DNA of 38,582 nt from Bacteroidota bacterium (GTDB lineage Bacteria > Bacteroidota > Ignavibacteria > UBA10030 > BY39): assembly GCA_030682385.1 (NCBI GenBank), contig JAUXOG010000086.1, positions 1 to 38,582 of the forward strand. The letters are read 5' to 3'. The translations under genes were made by a program, and so were the position numbers. This document shows, piece by piece, positions 22,138-31,703 of the stretch (the first letter of the stretch is position 1; the number at the start of each line of letters is the position of its first letter). The notes under the pieces were generated by a model that did no database searches, had not been told where the DNA came from, and saw only the letters and a list, made by a program, of their open reading frames with translations.

Positions 22138-22593
22138 TTATTCTCCAGCCTCAACCAGAGCTTGTTGCTCAATTGCAGTAGTCAATCGAAAATCAGTTTT
22201 TCGTATTTTTTCCAGGTAAGGTTTGATAGATGGGATTACGCCACGAAGTTTTGCTTTAATTATAATACCAATAGTTCCAGAAACCATTAGTCCAAGTTTT
22301 TCTGCGATTACCCTCGCTTTATAGTCATCAAGAATAATTGTACTTTCCGGGGTTTCAATAGCTAAGGCGATTACGCTTGCCTCTCCTTTGTCAATTTGAA
22401 GTTCCAGTATTTGTTGTCTGTACTTGTCGGTTGTTGATTTGATTTTTACCAAGTCGGGGAATTGTTGTCCGTATTCGGTTGCTACCTCGATCGTTGTAAT
22501 TACCTTGCCGTAGGTTTTTTGAAGCAGGTCCAATTCTCCAATGTTTGTCAACACAATAAAACAACTTGTATTGGAAATTATTGCGTTAGGCAT
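22138..22593 (-). CDS. PIN-like toxin (DUF3368 type) with altered catalytic residue
   Basis: This 151-residue protein matches the DUF3368 PIN-like family usually paired with UPF0175 antitoxins. It has an N-terminal IISNTSCFIVLTNIGELDLL, a middle IDKGEASVIALAIE near residue 72, ILDDYKARVIAEKLGL near 90, and GTIGIIIKAKLRGVIPSIKP near 108. Family members act as metal-dependent RNases using Asp/Glu residues. The first acidic residue normally sits in an ISDTS motif; here codon 8 is AAT, giving ISNTS. This suggests reduced or lost activity, while E74, D93 and D94 remain. It overlaps the antitoxin gene by 8 bases, typical of a toxin-antitoxin operon. Confidence 0.82.
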   Translation of the reverse strand: MPNAIISNTSCFIVLTNIGELDLLQKTYGKVITTIEVATEYGQQFPDLVKIKSTTDKYRQQILELQIDKGEASVIALAIETPESTIILDDYKARVIAEKLGLMVSGTIGIIIKAKLRGVIPSIKPYLEKIRKTDFRLTTAIEQQALVEAGE

Positions 22594-22813: not shown

Positions 22814-23032
22814 GTTTCAATAATAATGAAATATTCACATAGATGCAATCAAGTTTTTTATTCTCTAACAATTTTAATGAATCTCCTCGCCGCAACCTGC
22901 TCGTCCCGCAGGCGGGCGGCAGGCGGGTTTTACCCTCGTCCGCCTTTGGCGGATTAGATTTTGTGGTGTTTACCTAGTTCGAAACTTCTAGTCTAAAACC
23001 GTTGCTGTTAGGCGAAGCATTTACGAGCACCA
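22814..23032. repeat. Junction region: rimO-upstream copy, GC-rich repeats and cdsA-tail copy
   Basis: No gene is visible. From left to right there is a diverged copy of the rimO upstream sequence (22849-22882, beginning TCAAGTTTTTTATTCTC). It is followed by a GC-rich block with CAGGCGGG units (22896-22927), a small palindrome CCGCCTTTGGCGG (22940-22952), and the second copy of the 16-base cdsA tail (22957-22972). The order mixes the two chromosomal edges of the hotspot, as expected after repeated insertions. Confidence 0.7.
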
Positions 23033-26000
23033 TCACCATTGTCTAAGAATCTCACTAAGATATTTCGCCACGGGACCTCTTCGGAGATGTTGATGTGCGA
23101 ATTGATTTCGATAACTCCGCAAGCAACCATAACAACTCGTGTCTTCAGCACATTTACATCCTCCACTAACTCGTTGAAGCGCAGCGTCTAAAGATTTTTT
23201 TAGATCCTCTTTATTTTCAAGACGTGCCACCAGCCCCGCACCACCGGGGACATTATCGTACAGGATAATAGGAGGCAGGCTGTGCTTTCCATCCAAGTTT
23301 CTAACCGTTGTACTAAGATCGACTGACGGTATCTGTAGGGTTTCAGCAACTCCCTCGACTATTGCATACGCTAATGAGTAGCTGAACCAAATAGGATCAA
23401 GAACATTGGGCTGTAAAAGAAATTGAAGTTGAATAACATCAGTTGGAAACTCATGACCGAGGGATATCTGCTGCGACCATTGACCTGAACAGTCTGAACC
23501 CATTGGAGACTTATGTTTTTTTATAAGTTGTTTTGTTAGTTGCTTATATCCTCTGCCACAGGAAGTGCACACTCGAAATCCTTGGCCGCGTCTTCCTTCA
23601 CATAGAACAACCATCTTGGCTGGTACCGCTTTAGTGATGTCAAGCCCGTTAAATGAACTCACTATCGGTTCTGCAACATTGAAGCCAACAAAATACGGTC
23701 TAGTAGTGAAAGACTTTGCAGGGCGTCCCTTCGGCTCATCTGGTTTTTCCTTACTCGTAACGAATCCGAAAATAGGATCAATGTATGTACTCTCTATCAT
23801 TCGGATGCAACACTTTTGGTGAGGTGGATTCTGTGTATAGAGATTATGTGTGGTGCATCTTGCATAATACTTTAATGGCCATTCCTTTCCTTTAACTCGT
23901 TTCAATCCGGCGGAGGTCCATTCTTTCTTGTTTGCTATCAGCTTACTCGTAGGAGCAAATTCAGCAATCGCAATAGATAGGTCGCGTTGAAGAGATGTTT
24001 CTGAGGAAACTTGACTTCGATTTTTCTTGATGGGTTGAGTATCTAACTCTACGACATCTACTGGAAAACCATATTTTGGAATTATTGCCTTGCGCGAAAG
24101 GAAGGAAAGCACCTTTTCATCTGCAATCGTGTTTTTCCTATCTTGTGCCCATTGAGCATCGGAATACTTCCCAATCTGCTTGGCCTCTTCTTCCATAGTT
24201 TTAAATTGGATGTAATCACTTGAGACTTCTGCTTCGGCATATGATAGTTTCGATTCGCTACCTGCAATTTTCTCAATCCAGGTTTTATCATATAAACCTA
24301 CATTAGCTGCTATCTTTTCTGGCACTACAGGAGCCAAGGATTTCTCTAATTGTTCTCTTTTGTTTTGTAGAAATTCTAGGAAATCAGATACACCTTTTGG
24401 TGTTTGGAAATCTCCAATAAAAGTTTGGACGGAATCGAATCTGGCTTGATTCTCACGAAAGTACGTCGAAAGCACTATTGCTGTTATGTGACGAAGAATG
24501 ATTTTTTCATTTCGCAAGCTCAGAGTTGGTGGTTTTGTTATTCCTTTTATCATCTTCAACGGTTCGGAAAAATGATAAAGATCGTGGGGAGAGCGTCGCG
24601 CATAAGTAATAGCAATTCCGGGATCTTTTCGACGACCCGCTCTTCCTACACGTTGCGCATAGTTAAACGATTCGGGGGGAACATTGCGTAAAAAGACTAC
24701 ATCCAAATCTCCCAAATCAACGCCCATTTCAAAAGTGGTCGAGCAACTCAAGACGTCTATTTTGTTTTTCTTGAAGTCATTTTGAAACTCTCGAGCTTTC
24801 TCTTTATCTATCTGCGCCGTGTGTTCCTCTACAATGAGACGTCCAGGTAGTTCTTCTTTGTACAACAGACGATAGTGGTTGTTTTTGATATCGGTATCCT
24901 GTATTCGTTTGTTTTCAAGTGTACCAGGACAATTGTGCCTGGGGCAGACGTTTCGAATTGATACCTTGGACACGCGTCCGCAAGTATCGCATTGGAAAAT
25001 AGTCTTAGATTCATCCACTGGAAAAACCCGCCACCAATCAGGATTTAGTCTGTGAGCATCTTCCGCTCTAATAAGAAATCGATCATTGTCTAACAGTTCA
25101 TCACTCCAATGCCGAACTGACCCCAAGATTTCCTCTAATGTCCGATCTGAAATACTCTCAGCTTCATTCTCAGCCAGATTCATTCTATGCAATATTTTCT
25201 TTAAGAAACCAGCACGCGCAGTTGCCTTACCTTTCCAACTATTGACTGCATAGGCATTCCGCGATTTTACTAATTGGGTTGACTGTTGCTTGTATCCTTC
25301 TCTAAAATGGAGATCTTGCCAGTTGAGAGATTTTGAGTCTTCTCTCCGAAGTTCAACGGATCTTTCCTGTCGCATATAACCAAAGAGGACAGATATAAGC
25401 TCCAATGATTCCTTTTGATTTAGTGACCATGGAGACCTTTGTAGAACTTCTGGAATCTTGAAATCCATGGGCCATGCAATTGACCAACGAAGTAAACCTA
25501 CACCCTCTAAGGACAACCTCGGTTCAACCGTCACGAACTCACGGTAAATTGCTATCCAAGCTTCATTTTGTATGTCGGTTCCACTTCTCGAAGTTCCATA
25601 AACTTGCATCTCAATGAATAGATCACGGAGTAGTCTTGAGACATCACGGAGTGACAATCCATCTTCGGAATCTTTAGGCCCTCTCTGCACAGCCTTAAGA
25701 ATAAGATTCTTGTTCCGAATATCCCGATATGACTCTTGAAGATACCAAGCAAAAAAAGCAGCCTCCTGTCTGCCATCTGCAAAAGCCAGCACTTTCTTCC
25801 TATCCTGGGGTAGGTATTGATGAAGTGTTGTGGCAATAACTGCGTGTGGCCCATCCGTGCCATGGATAACCTCTCTCACTGGATCCGAACCCTTGTAGGT
25901 ACAACTTATGCATTTGGGTGCTTGATCTTTTTCTCCATCATCTTTTTCTTTCTCCCTCGAAGTTTCTTTCGTTATCACGAGGATGGAATTATTATGTCCA

Positions 26001-27724
26001 CAGCTATTTGCATCTCCTGATCCATTTACGAACCACATTGCTCCACACTGTAAGCAAAGTTGGAACCGCTTGAGATCAGAATCTTCATCTTCCTCAGTAT
26101 TATAGTTTTCTACGGATCCGTTTTCAACTGGAAGATAAAACTCTGCTCCAAACTCCTCGTTCCCCGTATCTCTTATTGCTTCGGTCAACTTACCATCCTT
26201 TAACTTACCTACAAAATAATGCTGGCCGCATTCTCTGCATAGAGCGACTTCAAATGATCGTCCTTCGCCTTCGTTGGACTGTCGATTGAGATAGACCTTT
26301 TTTTCTGGCCAATAGGCGACCGTTGCACCCTCCAAGGAGCGAAGGAATAAATGGTAACGCGCGGATAACAGCGGTGACTTTGTTTCCGAATCGACGCCCT
26401 TAAGAAGAACTTCGACTAGGTCGGATAGCGCTTTTAAACGTTGATTTGGTAATAAATCACCGAAAACTTCATCAGCTAATATTGCCGCTTCGGCCGGGGA
26501 GTCTGATAACCGATTTCGTAATAGAACCGAGCGTTTGTCTTTTTGCAACATCCTGCCGACTGATTCAGAAACTTTTTGTTGAGGTTCAATTGCAATTCCA
26601 ATTTGGCCTGATAAATCGAAAAGCCTTTTGACACTATCAGCGGAAGACGATTCGAGAGCTTCCTGAAGTAATGGATAAAAACCAGTTGGAATGTCCACCG
26701 TTCTTTCTTGTGGAAGAGGCTCACACTCGCCCAGTATAATATCCTCTTCAAAGAATGGCTCACCGAATAAGTCGGAAGCGAACTCAGCTACTTTTCCACG
26801 GTCATTTTGATCACCAGAAATGGATGCACTTGTTGCTATGCAGCGGAACTGGCTGGATTGGCCACCTTCTCTTAGCCGCTGTTTCAGGCGTCGGATGAGC
26901 ATAGCCATTTCAATTCCTTTCGACCCTCTGTACTGATGAGCTTCGTCCAAGACCAAATAGACCCAGTTCTTGGCTCTATCGTTGTCAAATAGCTCACTGT
27001 CCTTTGGACGAAGCAGCAAATACTCCAGCATAGAGTAGTTAGTCAAGAGTAAATGCGGAGGAGTCTTCCTCATTTCCGTTCTTAGAACCAACTCACCGGA
27101 ATATCTGTTGTCGATTCGGTTACGAGCATTGCGGGGAGAATCGTTTTCATCTTCGGGCGTGGCGCCAGTATACTGTCCGTAAGTGAAGCGGAAAGGAGAT
27201 CTATAATTTTCAAGAAGTTTGCATATACCTGGTGGGTCCTCCGTTGCGCCAAGCCTATCTCTCTGATCGTTCACGAGTGCATTCATAGGATAGAGAACAA
27301 GAGCTCGGACACCGCCTTCAAAATTAAGAGTACCTTGCTTAAACTCTCTGTAAAGATGAAGCAATATTGGATAAAGGAAAGCCTCTGTTTTGCCACTTCC
27401 CGTCCCAGTTGCCACAACGACATTCCGACCTTGATATACACGACGAATTGCTTCTTCCTGATGCACATACAGCAACTTGTCAGTGGCTTTTAGAAATCCT
27501 TCATCTGGGGATGATCCAAGGAGGGTTTCAAAAAGAGAACGAGTTGTTTCGCGTCTTTTGAAAATAGGTGTCGCTTCAAGGTATGGCCCTTTACTTAGGT
27601 TTCCTTCTTGTTCGAGCGCTTCTTCAAATGACTTTCGCAGAATGGGGTCTCTAAAATAGAATGTCGTTTGAAGATACCTGCGATATCTTTCTTCAACAAC
27701 TTTTGCTAATTCTGATGGATTCAT
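23033..27724 (-). CDS. Large DEAD/DEAH helicase with C-terminal DUF1998-type zinc region (DruE/DISARM-like)
   Basis: This is a 1563-residue superfamily 2 helicase. Motif I ATGTGSGKTE is at 105-114, motif Ia LYPMNALVNDQRDR follows, DEAH is at 260-263, and motif III is ATSAS. A long insert with zinc-ribbon Cys pairs (CRECGQHYF, CLQCGAMWF) separates the halves. A second ribbon (CDTCGRVSK, CPRHNCPG) precedes the second RecA fold, which has STTFEMGVDLGDLD and QRVGRAGRR (about 1020-1031). The C-terminus has ILYDNVPGGAGLV and a four-Cys cluster (CKCAEDTSCYGC, about 1525-1540), the DUF1998/MZB pattern. Such helicases include MrfA and the defence proteins DruE (Druantia) and the DISARM helicase/DUF1998 pair. 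It overlaps the upstream gene by 4 bases (ATGA) and lies in an accessory island. I infer an anti-phage role. Confidence 0.82.
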   Translation of the reverse strand: MNPSELAKVVEERYRRYLQTTFYFRDPILRKSFEEALEQEGNLSKGPYLEATPIFKRRETTRSLFETLLGSSPDEGFLKATDKLLYVHQEEAIRRVYQGRNVVVATGTGSGKTEAFLYPILLHLYREFKQGTLNFEGGVRALVLYPMNALVNDQRDRLGATEDPPGICKLLENYRSPFRFTYGQYTGATPEDENDSPRNARNRIDNRYSGELVLRTEMRKTPPHLLLTNYSMLEYLLLRPKDSELFDNDRAKNWVYLVLDEAHQYRGSKGIEMAMLIRRLKQRLREGGQSSQFRCIATSASISGDQNDRGKVAEFASDLFGEPFFEEDIILGECEPLPQERTVDIPTGFYPLLQEALESSSADSVKRLFDLSGQIGIAIEPQQKVSESVGRMLQKDKRSVLLRNRLSDSPAEAAILADEVFGDLLPNQRLKALSDLVEVLLKGVDSETKSPLLSARYHLFLRSLEGATVAYWPEKKVYLNRQSNEGEGRSFEVALCRECGQHYFVGKLKDGKLTEAIRDTGNEEFGAEFYLPVENGSVENYNTEEDEDSDLKRFQLCLQCGAMWFVNGSGDANSCGHNNSILVITKETSREKEKDDGEKDQAPKCISCTYKGSDPVREVIHGTDGPHAVIATTLHQYLPQDRKKVLAFADGRQEAAFFAWYLQESYRDIRNKNLILKAVQRGPKDSEDGLSLRDVSRLLRDLFIEMQVYGTSRSGTDIQNEAWIAIYREFVTVEPRLSLEGVGLLRWSIAWPMDFKIPEVLQRSPWSLNQKESLELISVLFGYMRQERSVELRREDSKSLNWQDLHFREGYKQQSTQLVKSRNAYAVNSWKGKATARAGFLKKILHRMNLAENEAESISDRTLEEILGSVRHWSDELLDNDRFLIRAEDAHRLNPDWWRVFPVDESKTIFQCDTCGRVSKVSIRNVCPRHNCPGTLENKRIQDTDIKNNHYRLLYKEELPGRLIVEEHTAQIDKEKAREFQNDFKKNKIDVLSCSTTFEMGVDLGDLDVVFLRNVPPESFNYAQRVGRAGRRKDPGIAITYARRSPHDLYHFSEPLKMIKGITKPPTLSLRNEKIILRHITAIVLSTYFRENQARFDSVQTFIGDFQTPKGVSDFLEFLQNKREQLEKSLAPVVPEKIAANVGLYDKTWIEKIAGSESKLSYAEAEVSSDYIQFKTMEEEAKQIGKYSDAQWAQDRKNTIADEKVLSFLSRKAIIPKYGFPVDVVELDTQPIKKNRSQVSSETSLQRDLSIAIAEFAPTSKLIANKKEWTSAGLKRVKGKEWPLKYYARCTTHNLYTQNPPHQKCCIRMIESTYIDPIFGFVTSKEKPDEPKGRPAKSFTTRPYFVGFNVAEPIVSSFNGLDITKAVPAKMVVLCEGRRGQGFRVCTSCGRGYKQLTKQLIKKHKSPMGSDCSGQWSQQISLGHEFPTDVIQLQFLLQPNVLDPIWFSYSLAYAIVEGVAETLQIPSVDLSTTVRNLDGKHSLPPIILYDNVPGGAGLVARLENKEDLKKSLDAALQRVSGGCKCAEDTSCYGCLRSYRNQFAHQHLRRGPVAKYLSEILRQW

Positions 27725-30129
27725 CTTGTGTTAGTCCTGGCTGATAACAGTGTAGAATCCTCGTCATTACGAATTAGCATTTCATATTTATCAGTGATGT
27801 TAGCAAGATGATCGGGATGGGCCTCAGCAACTTTGATTAAGGTTCTCACCCATCCTCGTCTCCTCCCGATTGGTTTCATTCCCCGTGATTTCATAATTTC
27901 CCAACACATTTTAATAAGGCAGGCTGTTCGTATCAAATAATCATCACGTTTCTCTTTGACATCAGACGACAACCAGTTTTGTTTACATTCCTTCAACATT
28001 TCAGAAAACGTTGGGTTTTTCGCTGTGTGATCCAAGCGGCTCAGATATTTCAAAAGTCGTTTTTTGTTGAGTCGGATCAATATAGAACGCTTGGGTCTGA
28101 TTTGCTTCTTAGCAGTATCACTTCGGTGCGGAAGGATTGCAATCGTCTGTTCAGCGAGGTTATTTATCCAGAGCTTCAGAGGATGATCTTTTGAAGAATC
28201 TTCGCATTCACTTGCCCCCTCAAAGTGATTTAGGGGAATCTCAACTTCCTGTCGTGTTACCTCTACACGGTATGCCCTGGCCCTCCATTGTTCAAAACCA
28301 ACATGAACTTCCTTTGTCCATCGACGTCGAGGAAAGCGGATTCTAAGAGAGTGCTTTGATGTTGCTACAAAGTGAAGAGGAGATAGAACAATAGATTTGT
28401 CTTTCCAACTATTTTGTTGAGCGGTAGCATCTTGTTCGCCAATGGACCACCATACTCTTTCAACGAGGAAAGAAAGGTCAACTTTTGGGTTTTTCTCAGT
28501 CAGTAGATTCCAATCTGTCTTGTCAGAGTTGGGGTTAGGTGGGACATCTACAATAGTCCCTCTGTCGTTGACATTTGTGTGCAATTGAATATCGAGGGGC
28601 CGTACGAGTCTAATGGAAGAGTTGTTGGCGTGATGGATCTCGATTCTTACAACTGCATGTCCTTGTTTTCCCGGCAACGCACTATGTGGGGCAATGACAA
28701 TATTTTCCAAAGTTAATGCAAAGCGAAAATCAAGACTCTCAATCAAGTCTTCATTCGTATCATATAATCTGATAAAATACCATCCAGACTGTCTTGCTTG
28801 CAAGGATTCACCCAAGTCTTGAATAGCGACTTCTCTGTTTGGAATAAAGGATGTCCTCCATCCGCTATGGTTTTCTCCCTCTTCTCCGATAACAACTGTC
28901 GTGATGTTTTCCCAGTCTAATCCCTCTCGGCAACGAAGTTTTGGCAGACTTGCTCCGAAGAGTGGACCCATCGCTTCGTTTGCATCTTCAATTAGTGGAC
29001 CTACAAGTTCAAACTGTGAAAGCCGATTCGGAATTTTGATCGGTTTACCTTCTGAAGTTAAAAAAGCAATATTGTTATCAGTTTCTGAATCTAAATTAAA
29101 AAAATGTGCCCTAAAGCCGGCAAGGTGACATTGCTCAGGTTGCACTTGTGGAACTCCAGACAATTCTTCGTTGCGTGTCCACATCTCCGGAACTACAACA
29201 AGAAATGTCCCTGTAGTTGCATATCGAACACGTCTTCCCCATTTCTGATTTTGTCCTGTGAGTTTGAACAACAGATATGGATTGTCTTTCTCTGCAAGTC
29301 GAATTTGAGTTTTCTGTTCCAATGATGATGACGAGAATTCGATGTTACTATCAATGCTGGATAGCATCCATCTCTCATCTGTCGTTTTGCTGAGTTTTTC
29401 ATTTCCTTGTAAAATTGCTAGATCAAACAAATCTGAATTATCGGGTATCTCAATACCCAAAAACCATTTCCTGTATTGTTGCCAGCAAACAACTTCTGGT
29501 TTGCGAATATGAACACTTTTTGTATCAGGTTTATTTTTTGAATTTTTCGAACCACATCCTGGCCCTCTTGGCCTACCGACTCGATCTATAGGAGAGAGTT
29601 TCGTTTGTTTACTCGGTGGCATAGTGTCGTTGGTTTGTGCTTCTTCTACAGCAGGCACATTATCTGTTGCAACAGGGATATCTGGTTCGCTTTCGGTTAG
29701 CTCAATTGCAGTCCCCGTGATATTGCTTTCTGGTTTATCTACAACGGCTGATATAGCTTCGGTTTTCTCCTCTTTTCTTTCTGGTTCGTGCTCAATCGAT
29801 GTTGAAATTGTTGTATCTGAAGACGAAGGAATATTATTCTGATCAATTGGCTCTTCTTCATTTCTCAATTGGTCTATAACATTATCTGATTCTGGTAAGG
29901 AAGGTGGTTCTTGTAAGCTTGTTGAGGGATCCGAAACAATAGGTGTTGAACTAGTATCCTCGATAGTTGGTTCAATGACCATCTGTGACTTATCAAAAGT
30001 TTTATCCCTGTCGGTTCGGGGCCTCCTGAATCTTTTTAAAACTGCAATCACCACGACCAGTGCGATGACGAGGAAGAAGATAGTTACTATGAAAGATGTT
30101 TCTTGCATTTGATTATGTCCGAACATCAT
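27721..30129 (-). CDS. Membrane-anchored partner of the helicase, unknown family
   Basis: This 802-residue protein has one N-terminal membrane helix (about 12-31, SFIVTIFFLVIALVVVIAVL), then a basic stop-transfer stretch. A long acidic, Ser/Thr/Pro-rich linker runs to about 180 (EEPIDQNNIPSSSDTTISTS). A folded region starts at a basic patch (VGRPRGPGCGSKNSKNKPDT) and HIRKPEVVCWQQYRKWFLGI, and continues through beta-rich segments to about 680. The last ~130 residues are helical and basic (RSILIRLNKKRLLKYLSRLD). I do not recognise the family. The 4-base overlap with the helicase implies coupled translation and a shared task. A two-gene unit of a large unknown protein plus a DUF1998 helicase recalls Druantia type III (DruH-DruE), but I cannot show homology to DruH. 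Confidence 0.65.
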   Translation of the reverse strand: MMFGHNQMQETSFIVTIFFLVIALVVVIAVLKRFRRPRTDRDKTFDKSQMVIEPTIEDTSSTPIVSDPSTSLQEPPSLPESDNVIDQLRNEEEPIDQNNIPSSSDTTISTSIEHEPERKEEKTEAISAVVDKPESNITGTAIELTESEPDIPVATDNVPAVEEAQTNDTMPPSKQTKLSPIDRVGRPRGPGCGSKNSKNKPDTKSVHIRKPEVVCWQQYRKWFLGIEIPDNSDLFDLAILQGNEKLSKTTDERWMLSSIDSNIEFSSSSLEQKTQIRLAEKDNPYLLFKLTGQNQKWGRRVRYATTGTFLVVVPEMWTRNEELSGVPQVQPEQCHLAGFRAHFFNLDSETDNNIAFLTSEGKPIKIPNRLSQFELVGPLIEDANEAMGPLFGASLPKLRCREGLDWENITTVVIGEEGENHSGWRTSFIPNREVAIQDLGESLQARQSGWYFIRLYDTNEDLIESLDFRFALTLENIVIAPHSALPGKQGHAVVRIEIHHANNSSIRLVRPLDIQLHTNVNDRGTIVDVPPNPNSDKTDWNLLTEKNPKVDLSFLVERVWWSIGEQDATAQQNSWKDKSIVLSPLHFVATSKHSLRIRFPRRRWTKEVHVGFEQWRARAYRVEVTRQEVEIPLNHFEGASECEDSSKDHPLKLWINNLAEQTIAILPHRSDTAKKQIRPKRSILIRLNKKRLLKYLSRLDHTAKNPTFSEMLKECKQNWLSSDVKEKRDDYLIRTACLIKMCWEIMKSRGMKPIGRRRGWVRTLIKVAEAHPDHLANITDKYEMLIRNDEDSTLLSARTNTR

Positions 30130-30175: not shown

Positions 30176-30204
30176 ATTTCTTTCAGTTGATTAATTGGTT
30201 AATC

Positions 30205-30426
30205 GAATTTAACAAATTCTGTTATAAAATCAAATATCTCAAAATCAAGTTTTTTATTCTCTTACAATTTTATTAAATTTTTAAAGTGAAAACTATTACA
30301 CCCAAAATTGCCGTTATTACACTCGGCTGTGCCAAAAATGTTGTCGATTCTGAAGAACTCTTAAGACAAATTGTCTCCAGCGACTACAATATCGTGAGCA
30401 ATCCTGATGATGCAAAATGCTGTTGA
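30205..30426 (+). pseudogene. rimO: Duplicated rimO upstream region and 5' fragment
   Basis: Bases 30205-30415 match 31490-31703, the upstream region and first ~45 codons of rimO, with only scattered differences. The copy keeps the GTG start (30286) and reads VKTITPKIAVITLGCAKNVV, then DSEELLRQIVSSDYNIVSNP. It then diverges after DDAK and stops at 30426, giving a 46-codon remnant without the radical-SAM domain. It lies directly beyond the left side of the DinD-like insertion, so it is best read as a target duplicated when that element entered. Confidence 0.88.
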
Positions 30427-30444: not shown

Positions 30445-31293
30445 CTATTTACCTATTTCTTTGTTTTTATTAGAACTTAAAACTTTAGCATTTTGTTTTG
30501 AAACCACTTTTTTGCCTGTGGTATTTTCCAATTGCAAACGAGCTGCTTTAGCTACCTCGCCGCCTTTTTTTGCAACAACTTTATTCTCTATGAATGTCTT
30601 AGGCTTTTTCTCTTTAGATATTTCGGTAGTTGATGCTTCAGCAAGCATATTAAGAACTAACTCAAGGTTAGTCATATTGTCGCGAAGGTTTTCTTTCTTC
30701 AAGTCTTTAAATGCTTTGTATTTCTTGGTCGAAAAGCCGCTCCAAGCTTTTATCATCTCATCCGTAAGTATAGCAAATTCCTGCCCTCTGTTTACTCCAC
30801 GGTTCTCCCACTCATCTGTCAGTTCTTTTCGTATTTCAATACTTTTAAGGCGCTGGTTTATCCACTCTTTGCTGTAACCTTTTCTTAAATAGGTTTCCAT
30901 TACTCTATCGATACCTATTTCAGGATCTTCAATTTCATCTACCCGCTCACGCGCTACTTTTGCTAACCAAAGTTTAAATGGCTCTGCTTTGGGCGATGGT
31001 ATAGATTGAATTAAGCGGAAAATTTGCTCGGTATCTGCAACATCGGTGATACGCATTTTGCCATCTTCGGCAACCATTTTCAACCGGTTACAATTTGTAA
31101 CCGTTTCATTTCCTTCTTTTATAAGGCGGTTTTTCAACACTTTCCAGTAATTACGTGCACCTTGATGCGTTGGCTGGTCAGTAAGAACCTCTACTACATC
31201 TACAATAGAAAAATACCACTTCTCTTGCTGCTCATCCCAATTGGTACGAACCTGCTTTTGTTCAAAAAGTTTTACTGAATTTTCTTTATCCAT
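30445..31293 (-). CDS. DinD-like / Bro-N domain protein
   Basis: I choose the ATG at 31293, giving 282 residues (MDKENSVKLFEQKQVRTNWD), the usual start of this family. The frame is open to 31500, but the extra 69 residues are not family-like. The N-terminal Bro-N/antirepressor-type domain is clear: KWYFSIVDVVEVLTDQPTHQ, RNYWKVLKNRLIKEGNE, IPSPKAEPFKLWLAKVARER. RGVNRGQEFAILTDEMIKAW near residue 170 matches DNA-damage-inducible protein D-like proteins of Bacteroidota. The C-terminus is Lys-rich. Family members are linked to DNA damage responses and mobile elements, and their mechanism is not established. It sits alone between two copies of the rimO 5' region, so it arrived as its own insertion. 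Confidence 0.85.
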   Translation of the reverse strand: MDKENSVKLFEQKQVRTNWDEQQEKWYFSIVDVVEVLTDQPTHQGARNYWKVLKNRLIKEGNETVTNCNRLKMVAEDGKMRITDVADTEQIFRLIQSIPSPKAEPFKLWLAKVARERVDEIEDPEIGIDRVMETYLRKGYSKEWINQRLKSIEIRKELTDEWENRGVNRGQEFAILTDEMIKAWSGFSTKKYKAFKDLKKENLRDNMTNLELVLNMLAEASTTEISKEKKPKTFIENKVVAKKGGEVAKAARLQLENTTGKKVVSKQNAKVLSSNKNKEIGK

Positions 31294-31489
31294 ATCAAAA
31301 CCTTGTAATGTCTCTTGGTATCTTGTTGTAAGGAAACAGATATCCGCATAAATAACATACTGTTCTGCCTTTGTTTTCATGGTAGCTAAAAAGAGTGATC
31401 TAATTGTAATGTTGGCATCTCTTGACTTAAAATCAGTTCCGTTTTCACTCTTACTCTCGGTCTGTGGTGCATTGAAAAATTGGCTATTT

Positions 31490-31703
31490 GAATCTAACAA
31501 ATTCTGTTAATAAATCAAATATATCTCAATATCAAGTTTTTTATTCTCTTACAATTTTATTAAATTTTTAGTGTGAAAACTATTACACCCAAAATTGCCG
31601 TTATTACACTCGGCTGTGCCAAAAATGTTGTCGATTCTGAAGAACTCTTGAAACAAATTGACTCAAGCGACTACAATATCGTGAGCAATCCCGAAGAAGC
31701 AAA
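31490..31703. repeat. Right copy of the rimO 5' duplication
   Basis: This segment comprises the rimO upstream region and its first ~43 codons. It is the intact counterpart of the fragment at 30205-30415. Its upstream part (31532-31565) also matches 22849-22882 beside the toxin-antitoxin pair, making three copies in the hotspot. Confidence 0.88.

Follow-up and report, generated by a model that had tools for sequence, protein, structure and literature searches.

Two overlapping genes on contig JAUXOG010000086.1 of a Bacteroidota bacterium (assembly GCA_030682385.1), one encoding a helicase of 1563 amino acids (aa) and the other a protein of 802 aa with a predicted membrane anchor, raise the question whether they form an anti-phage system and, if so, to which known system it belongs. 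The window, i.e. the whole stretch of 38,582 nucleotides (nt) analysed here, carries both genes on its minus strand (Table 1). An earlier note, made from the sequence alone, had suggested a Druantia III-like variant or a new two-gene type, and this suggestion is borne out in that the helicase matches DruE and the folded body of its partner is a remote DruH core. We consider it likely that the pair is a compact two-gene Druantia III-like system, with a DruH-core partner and a role in defence; beyond this identity, we infer an anti-phage activity and a mechanism, both put conditionally below.

The two open reading frames (ORFs) lie exactly where the earlier note placed them and share 4 nt (ATGA), an overlap consistent with the translational coupling it had claimed. 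The helicase, a member of superfamily 2 (SF2), contains the DEAD, Helicase_C and MZB/DUF1998 domains of the DruE-type helicase of Druantia type III, with its motifs in order (Walker A at residue 109, DEAH at residue 260, motif VI at residue 1024). The earlier description of an SF2 helicase with a DUF1998/MZB-like C-terminus thus holds, while its count of two internal zinc ribbons was too low, as there are six CxxC motifs (residues 496, 557, 605, 912, 1386 and 1531). The best PADLOC match was DruE1 (E 3.5e-193), with DruE3 at 7.3e-163 and the DruE models spanning 1e-117 to 1e-193, and the helicase models of DISARM and Dpd scored far below these (e.g. 70 bits for DrmA versus 643 for DruE). Against solved structures, the DruE profile reached 331 bits to DruE (9tu7) and 105 to YprA. 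The C-terminus ends only 28 residues past the MZB domain and thus leaves no space for a nuclease domain; in E. coli DruE, taken as a yardstick, 413 residues follow MZB and hold the PLD domains (PMC13192584, PMC12458937), so that the C-terminal PLD nuclease characteristic of Druantia III-A is absent here.

A YprA-family helicase with a DUF1998 module is likewise found in Druantia I, II and IV, ARMADA, DISARM and Dpd, but the partner genes of these systems do not stand beside the pair, and the helicase scores lower for them, the exception being DruE1, the model of which spans the common core. DISARM was rejected since MZB is fused to the helicase, in contrast to the split DrmA/DrmB of that system, and DrmA scores poorly; moreover, no methylase or DrmC gene neighbours the pair among the scanned genes. 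Druantia I, II and IV and ARMADA were rejected because DruA-D, DruM/F/G, DruL and ArmA/ArmB/ArmD are not beside the helicase. Apart from the partner, the genes adjoining the helicase are a Bro-N gene and the two ORFs of a PIN-antitoxin pair, in agreement with the earlier statement that methylase and DruA are lacking.

Relatives were gathered by whole-genome searches and by a DruE alignment scan of public genomes, the latter yielding 80 loci. Trees were computed with FastTree on all 85 DruE-like rows and, for a smaller set, by maximum likelihood with IQ-TREE and ArmC as outgroup. In the 85-protein tree the helicase of the window is one of 33 sequences that form group A (support 100), the sister clade of a group B1; the IQ-TREE supports are 100 for A, 99 for B1 and 100 for A+B1. 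In the latter tree, A+B1 is joined by canonical DruH-paired DruE and a group B2 (98), apart from the other DruE-like rows, and in both trees the helicase groups with DruH-paired DruE, not with ArmC/ARMADA or other YprA helicases. Group A mixes phyla, with Spirochaetota beside Aminicenantota and with Chloroflexota, Bacillota and Acidobacteriota interspersed with the window's own phylum, a pattern that fits horizontal spread, although caution is due as most members are metagenome-assembled genomes (MAGs).

Some observations on DruE stand apart from this argument. Two loci, from a Treponema MAG (L015) and an Aminicenantes MAG (L033), have nearly identical DruE, reflecting either transfer or a binning error. 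A Ruminococcus phage record (PV036439.1, 13739-18397) contains a full-length DruE homologue at 30.7% identity. Six further loci (L072, L078, L079, L083, L087 and L088) encode other DruE-like helicases of 1720-1785 aa preceded by different genes, by eye PIN-like, Schlafen/AlbA-like or metallo-beta-lactamase-like, and are possibly further unassigned systems.

The partner accompanies the helicase consistently. The first homologues came from five further genomes belonging to the phylum or family; they show 22-41% identity, and each lies directly upstream of a DruE that is itself 47-66% identical where complete. Within group A, three contigs start at DruE and the other 30 of the 33 all carry the partner directly upstream (in L035 only as broken pieces), so that its retention next to the helicase, which the earlier note had left to be checked, is confirmed. 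As in Druantia type III, the two genes are co-directional with the partner upstream, and a search for a recurring third gene family around the pairs found none. Chance association is rejected because both proteins are kept as a pair across many phyla. Over 300 pairwise comparisons, the partner core averages 29% identity versus 51% for DruE and is the less conserved in all 300, and the distances of the two proteins correlate (Mantel r 0.94, 0/2000 permutations); faster divergence while tracking the helicase is the pattern reported for DruH relative to DruE. Searches with the partner found homologues neither in plasmids nor in viral contigs, and a protein-only scan of genome contigs with it gave no matches.

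This distribution bears on whether the genes encode a DNA-repair or replication-stress helicase pair (MrfAB/Hrq1-like) instead of a defence system, which we hold to be very unlikely. The helicase core is common to all YprA-family members, and in one system DruE can be replaced by SftH, its mycobacterial housekeeping homologue (PMC13316683). A housekeeping YprA/MrfA/SftH identity is nevertheless rejected: the grouping with MrfA/Hrq1 raised in the earlier note is contradicted by the structure-based scores given above, the housekeeping model TIGR03817 gave 104.8 bits against a cutoff of 874 in the NCBIfam scan, and the distribution is patchy, the partner-core profile being found in 5 of 395 genomes sampled from the phylum, in all five at DruE loci with the partner immediately upstream of the helicase. 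The island location of the pair and its spread across phyla likewise speak against a repair function.

What the partner is could not be read from curated models. PADLOC, Pfam and NCBIfam assigned it to no family, and the DruH models themselves gave no match (PADLOC DruH at a threshold of E 1; NCBIfam NF038336, YjiT_fam, at E 0.1), while positive controls did match. Profiles were compared with canonical DruH sequences from E. coli ATCC 8739 and plasmids and with a second family, B1, consisting of the proteins encoded upstream of DruE in the sister clade. With hhalign E-values that refer to single comparisons, not database searches, A and B1 aligned at 98.7% probability (E 2.4e-16, 415 columns), B1 and DruH at 96.3% (E 1.5e-9, collinear over 624 columns), and A and DruH directly at 67.5% (E 5e-5), whereas reversed-sequence controls gave E of at least 0.2. 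The alignment covers partner residues of about 236-669 only, the rest being the transmembrane helix, the linker and a different tail; via B1, this region corresponds to the part of DruH with the immunoglobulin (Ig)-like domains (257-748; PMC13192584). For the B2 partners (L070, L071 and L073), profile comparison established no tie to group A or DruH.

The AlphaFold2 model of the core consists of tandem beta-sandwiches (predicted local distance difference test (pLDDT) 89.7, predicted template modelling score (pTM) 0.82) that resemble Ig and FN3 domains in a generic way. Foldseek and VIA searches returned only generic Ig/FN3 and S-layer matches (Z <8), and the solved DruH 9tud was not among the 50 matches listed (structure releases to 2026-04-08). 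Such generic matches, the commonness of Ig-like folds and the modest direct score between A and DruH would suit an unrelated Ig-like membrane protein joined to DruE, the profile link being a convergent beta-sandwich signal; we regard this as unlikely, given the collinearity from A through B1 to DruH, the location that these proteins share next to orthologous helicases and the null result of the reversed controls. What the earlier note called an unrecognised folded body is indeed folded and escapes PADLOC, Pfam and NCBIfam, but it can now be recognised as a remote DruH core. It is thus well supported, from sequence profiles, that the partner is a divergent DruH core which lacks the N- and C-terminal parts of DruH and is usually re-tethered to the membrane.

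The N-terminal helix and the long acidic linker of the earlier note were both recovered. The pLDDT of the helix is about 85-92 over most of its length, residues 36-178 of the disordered linker hold 32 D/E versus 12 K/R, and a basic RVGRPRG motif lies close to the linker's end. Since K/R-rich residues come after the helix, the positive-inside rule predicts that the body of the partner should be cytoplasmic. A transmembrane helix is present in 19 of the 29 intact group-A partners, as a rule with basic residues after it, so that the claimed tethering to the membrane is common among relatives but not universal. In B1 proteins no such helix occurs within the first 120 residues. The C-terminal module, which is basic here (32 K/R versus 16 D/E), varies within group A, where many partners end in zinc-finger arrays, several in L13e-like modules (Pfam L13e, E 2e-7 in L011) and others in different helical tails, the basic tail of the present partner among them. 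L021 with zinc fingers and L022 with an L13e-like module are sisters in the DruE tree, from which we conclude that this module has been exchanged.

The pair thus shares with Druantia type III of E. coli ATCC 8739 (DruH-DruE; PDB 9tu7-9tud) two genes in the same order, a DruE-clade YprA helicase and a faster-evolving upstream partner with Ig-like domains. It differs in that the partner has neither the N-terminal nor the C-terminal domain of DruH, possesses a membrane helix and an acidic linker, ends in a different tail and remains undetected by the PADLOC and NCBIfam DruH models. Because full DruH architecture, detection by DruH models and the PLD nuclease are all missing, we do not file it as canonical Druantia III. 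Groups A and B1 probably belong to the type III-B or III-like branch of Bell et al. 2025 (PMC12458937), which comprises distinct, mostly nuclease-less DruE-like helicases; its main text mentions no DruH core with a membrane anchor. A type III pair of Mycolicibacterium smegmatis (MSMEG_1253-1254; PMC13316683) also has overlapping genes and no nuclease and is shown to be anti-phage: its DruE (1667 aa) has only DEAD, Helicase_C and DUF1998, and its DruH differs in its length of 1132 aa and in that no membrane anchor is reported in the text consulted. This pair, which responds to a minor tail protein as its trigger, blocks circularisation and replication of phage DNA.

Several points weigh against our interpretation. 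Neither DruE nor the partner holds a recognisable nuclease that could account for the effector step. The link to DruH, as seen above, leans partly on the B1 bridge, its direct probability being modest, and the partner escapes the PADLOC DruH models and YjiT_fam. A clear transmembrane helix is missing in 10 of 29 intact members. The M. smegmatis pair is a putative member of B1, judged by size, domain content and the position of K119 only, K119 being the sole informative site of the residue-position fingerprint used for this placement. Finally, E. coli DruH and DruE form no stable complex in vitro (PMC13192584), although an interaction was seen in mycobacteria.

If the pair does act on phages, the DruH-like protein could be an infection sensor attached to the cytoplasmic membrane on its inner side, with Ig-like domains that recognise either a structural or an entry protein of the phage. 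Such recognition has been proposed for DruH, that of E. coli being likely to sense structural proteins of phages (PMC13192584). Entry proteins and DNA ends would make their first appearance at the membrane, and the sensor would deliver DruE to them, the long linker letting it reach and hold the helicase and the basic tail perhaps contacting nucleic acid. Once triggered, DruE may load on phage DNA wherever this has 3' single-stranded ends or tails, in line with its preference for 3'-tailed DNA (PMC13192584), and its translocation may block circularisation or replication without a nuclease of its own, as reported for the M. smegmatis pair. Candidates for the final disabling step would be a host nuclease, stalled replication or cell arrest.

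For recruitment to the membrane, taken by itself, we put the chances somewhat below even. It competes with a more canonical Druantia III, possible but rather doubtful, where the DruH-like protein would have late replication intermediates in the cytosol as its target and the helix would be incidental, serving, e.g., storage or turnover instead of sensing. The helix-less relatives, several of which have amphipathic or coiled-coil N-termini, would suit such a protein, but most members across many phyla have the helix whereas B1 and DruH lack it, and it therefore looks selected. A membrane position would also suit the entry of DNA, and DruE's taste for 3' tails agrees with an anti-plasmid or anti-conjugation role in which the tethered partner would detect either the transfer machinery or single-stranded DNA as it enters, with DruE acting on the 3' tail; nothing specific to this was found here and the characterised relatives act on phages, so that we think it quite unlikely.

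More speculatively, and with considerable doubt on our part, group A might represent a distinct Druantia subtype, in which a reduced DruH core moved to the membrane serves as a nuclease-free trap: a tethered sensor of an entry or tail protein would hand the translocating helicase to the incoming DNA end, and exchangeable C-terminal modules (zinc fingers, L13e-like or helical) would set the target. The nuclease-less III-like branch has been reported already (PMC12458937), while for a membrane-anchored reduced DruH with exchangeable tails the literature searched holds, to our knowledge, no description, and current defence detectors probably see this system only in part. If our interpretation is correct, defence catalogues understate the breadth of Druantia III, which would include a widespread clade whose DruH sits at the membrane, stripped of both terminal parts and invisible to current models; sensing would be separated from nuclease activity, the idea that DruE translocation alone stops a phage would become testable in a natural two-gene system, and there would be a hint of how a sensor core can be re-targeted by swapping its ends.

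Table 1. Features of the gene pair and its surroundings, in window coordinates
Feature	Position	Strand	Basis or remark
PIN/DUF3368 toxin (PADLOC PDC-S70)	22138-22593		overlaps antitoxin ORF
Putative antitoxin, 75 aa	22586-22813		overlaps PIN/DUF3368 toxin
36-nt repeat, copy 1	22847-22882	+	left of pair
DruE-like YprA-family SF2 helicase, 1563 aa, without C-terminal nuclease	23033-27724	-	PADLOC, Pfam, trees
MZB/DUF1998, residues 1451-1535	23120-23374	-	Pfam
Helicase_C match, RecA2, residues 958-1032	24629-24853	-	Pfam
DEAD/RecA1 domain, residues 88-303	26816-27463	-	Pfam
Membrane-anchored DruH-like partner, 802 aa	27721-30129	-	
Variable basic C-terminal module, residues 669-802	27724-28125	-	helical, low-confidence prediction
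Tandem Ig-like/FN3-like beta core, residues 205-668	28126-29517	-	AlphaFold2, Ig/FN3 matches, hhalign
Mostly disordered linker, residues 36-204, acidic to residue 178	29518-30024	-	pLDDT mostly <50
N-terminal transmembrane helix, residues 7-34	30028-30111	-	AlphaFold2 helix; mean hydropathy 3.47
230-nt duplication	30187-30416 and 31472-31703		carries truncated rimO 5' end (30286-30416)
36-nt repeat, copy 2	30243-30278	+	right of pair, then duplicate of truncated rimO 5' end
ORF of truncated rimO 5' end copy	30286-30426		
Bro-N gene	30445-31500		PADLOC PDC-S13, E 6e-134
36-nt repeat, copy 3	31530-31565	+	leader of intact rimO

The surroundings of the pair agree with the island setting and the adjoining toxin-antitoxin pair described earlier, the latter consisting of a PIN/DUF3368 toxin and a small putative antitoxin. 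Five relatives have cdsA next to rimO, representing the empty site, while here the two genes are separated by 9.4 kb that hold the PIN-antitoxin pair, the DruE pair and the Bro-N gene. A 36-nt repeat is confined, within the genome, to three direct copies at this locus; copies 1 and 2 flank the DruE pair, and the Bro-N gene likewise sits between two copies. Promoter-like sites at the locus are not more frequent than in shuffled sequences, and no recombinase gene was seen within the island. Judging from the repeats and the duplicated 5' end of rimO, the arrangement looks like the outcome of successive insertions at one site, the rimO 5' end. A genus mate (G001 contig 50, L122) has different DNA upstream of rimO, so that insertions may favour the cdsA/rimO junction as a hot spot.
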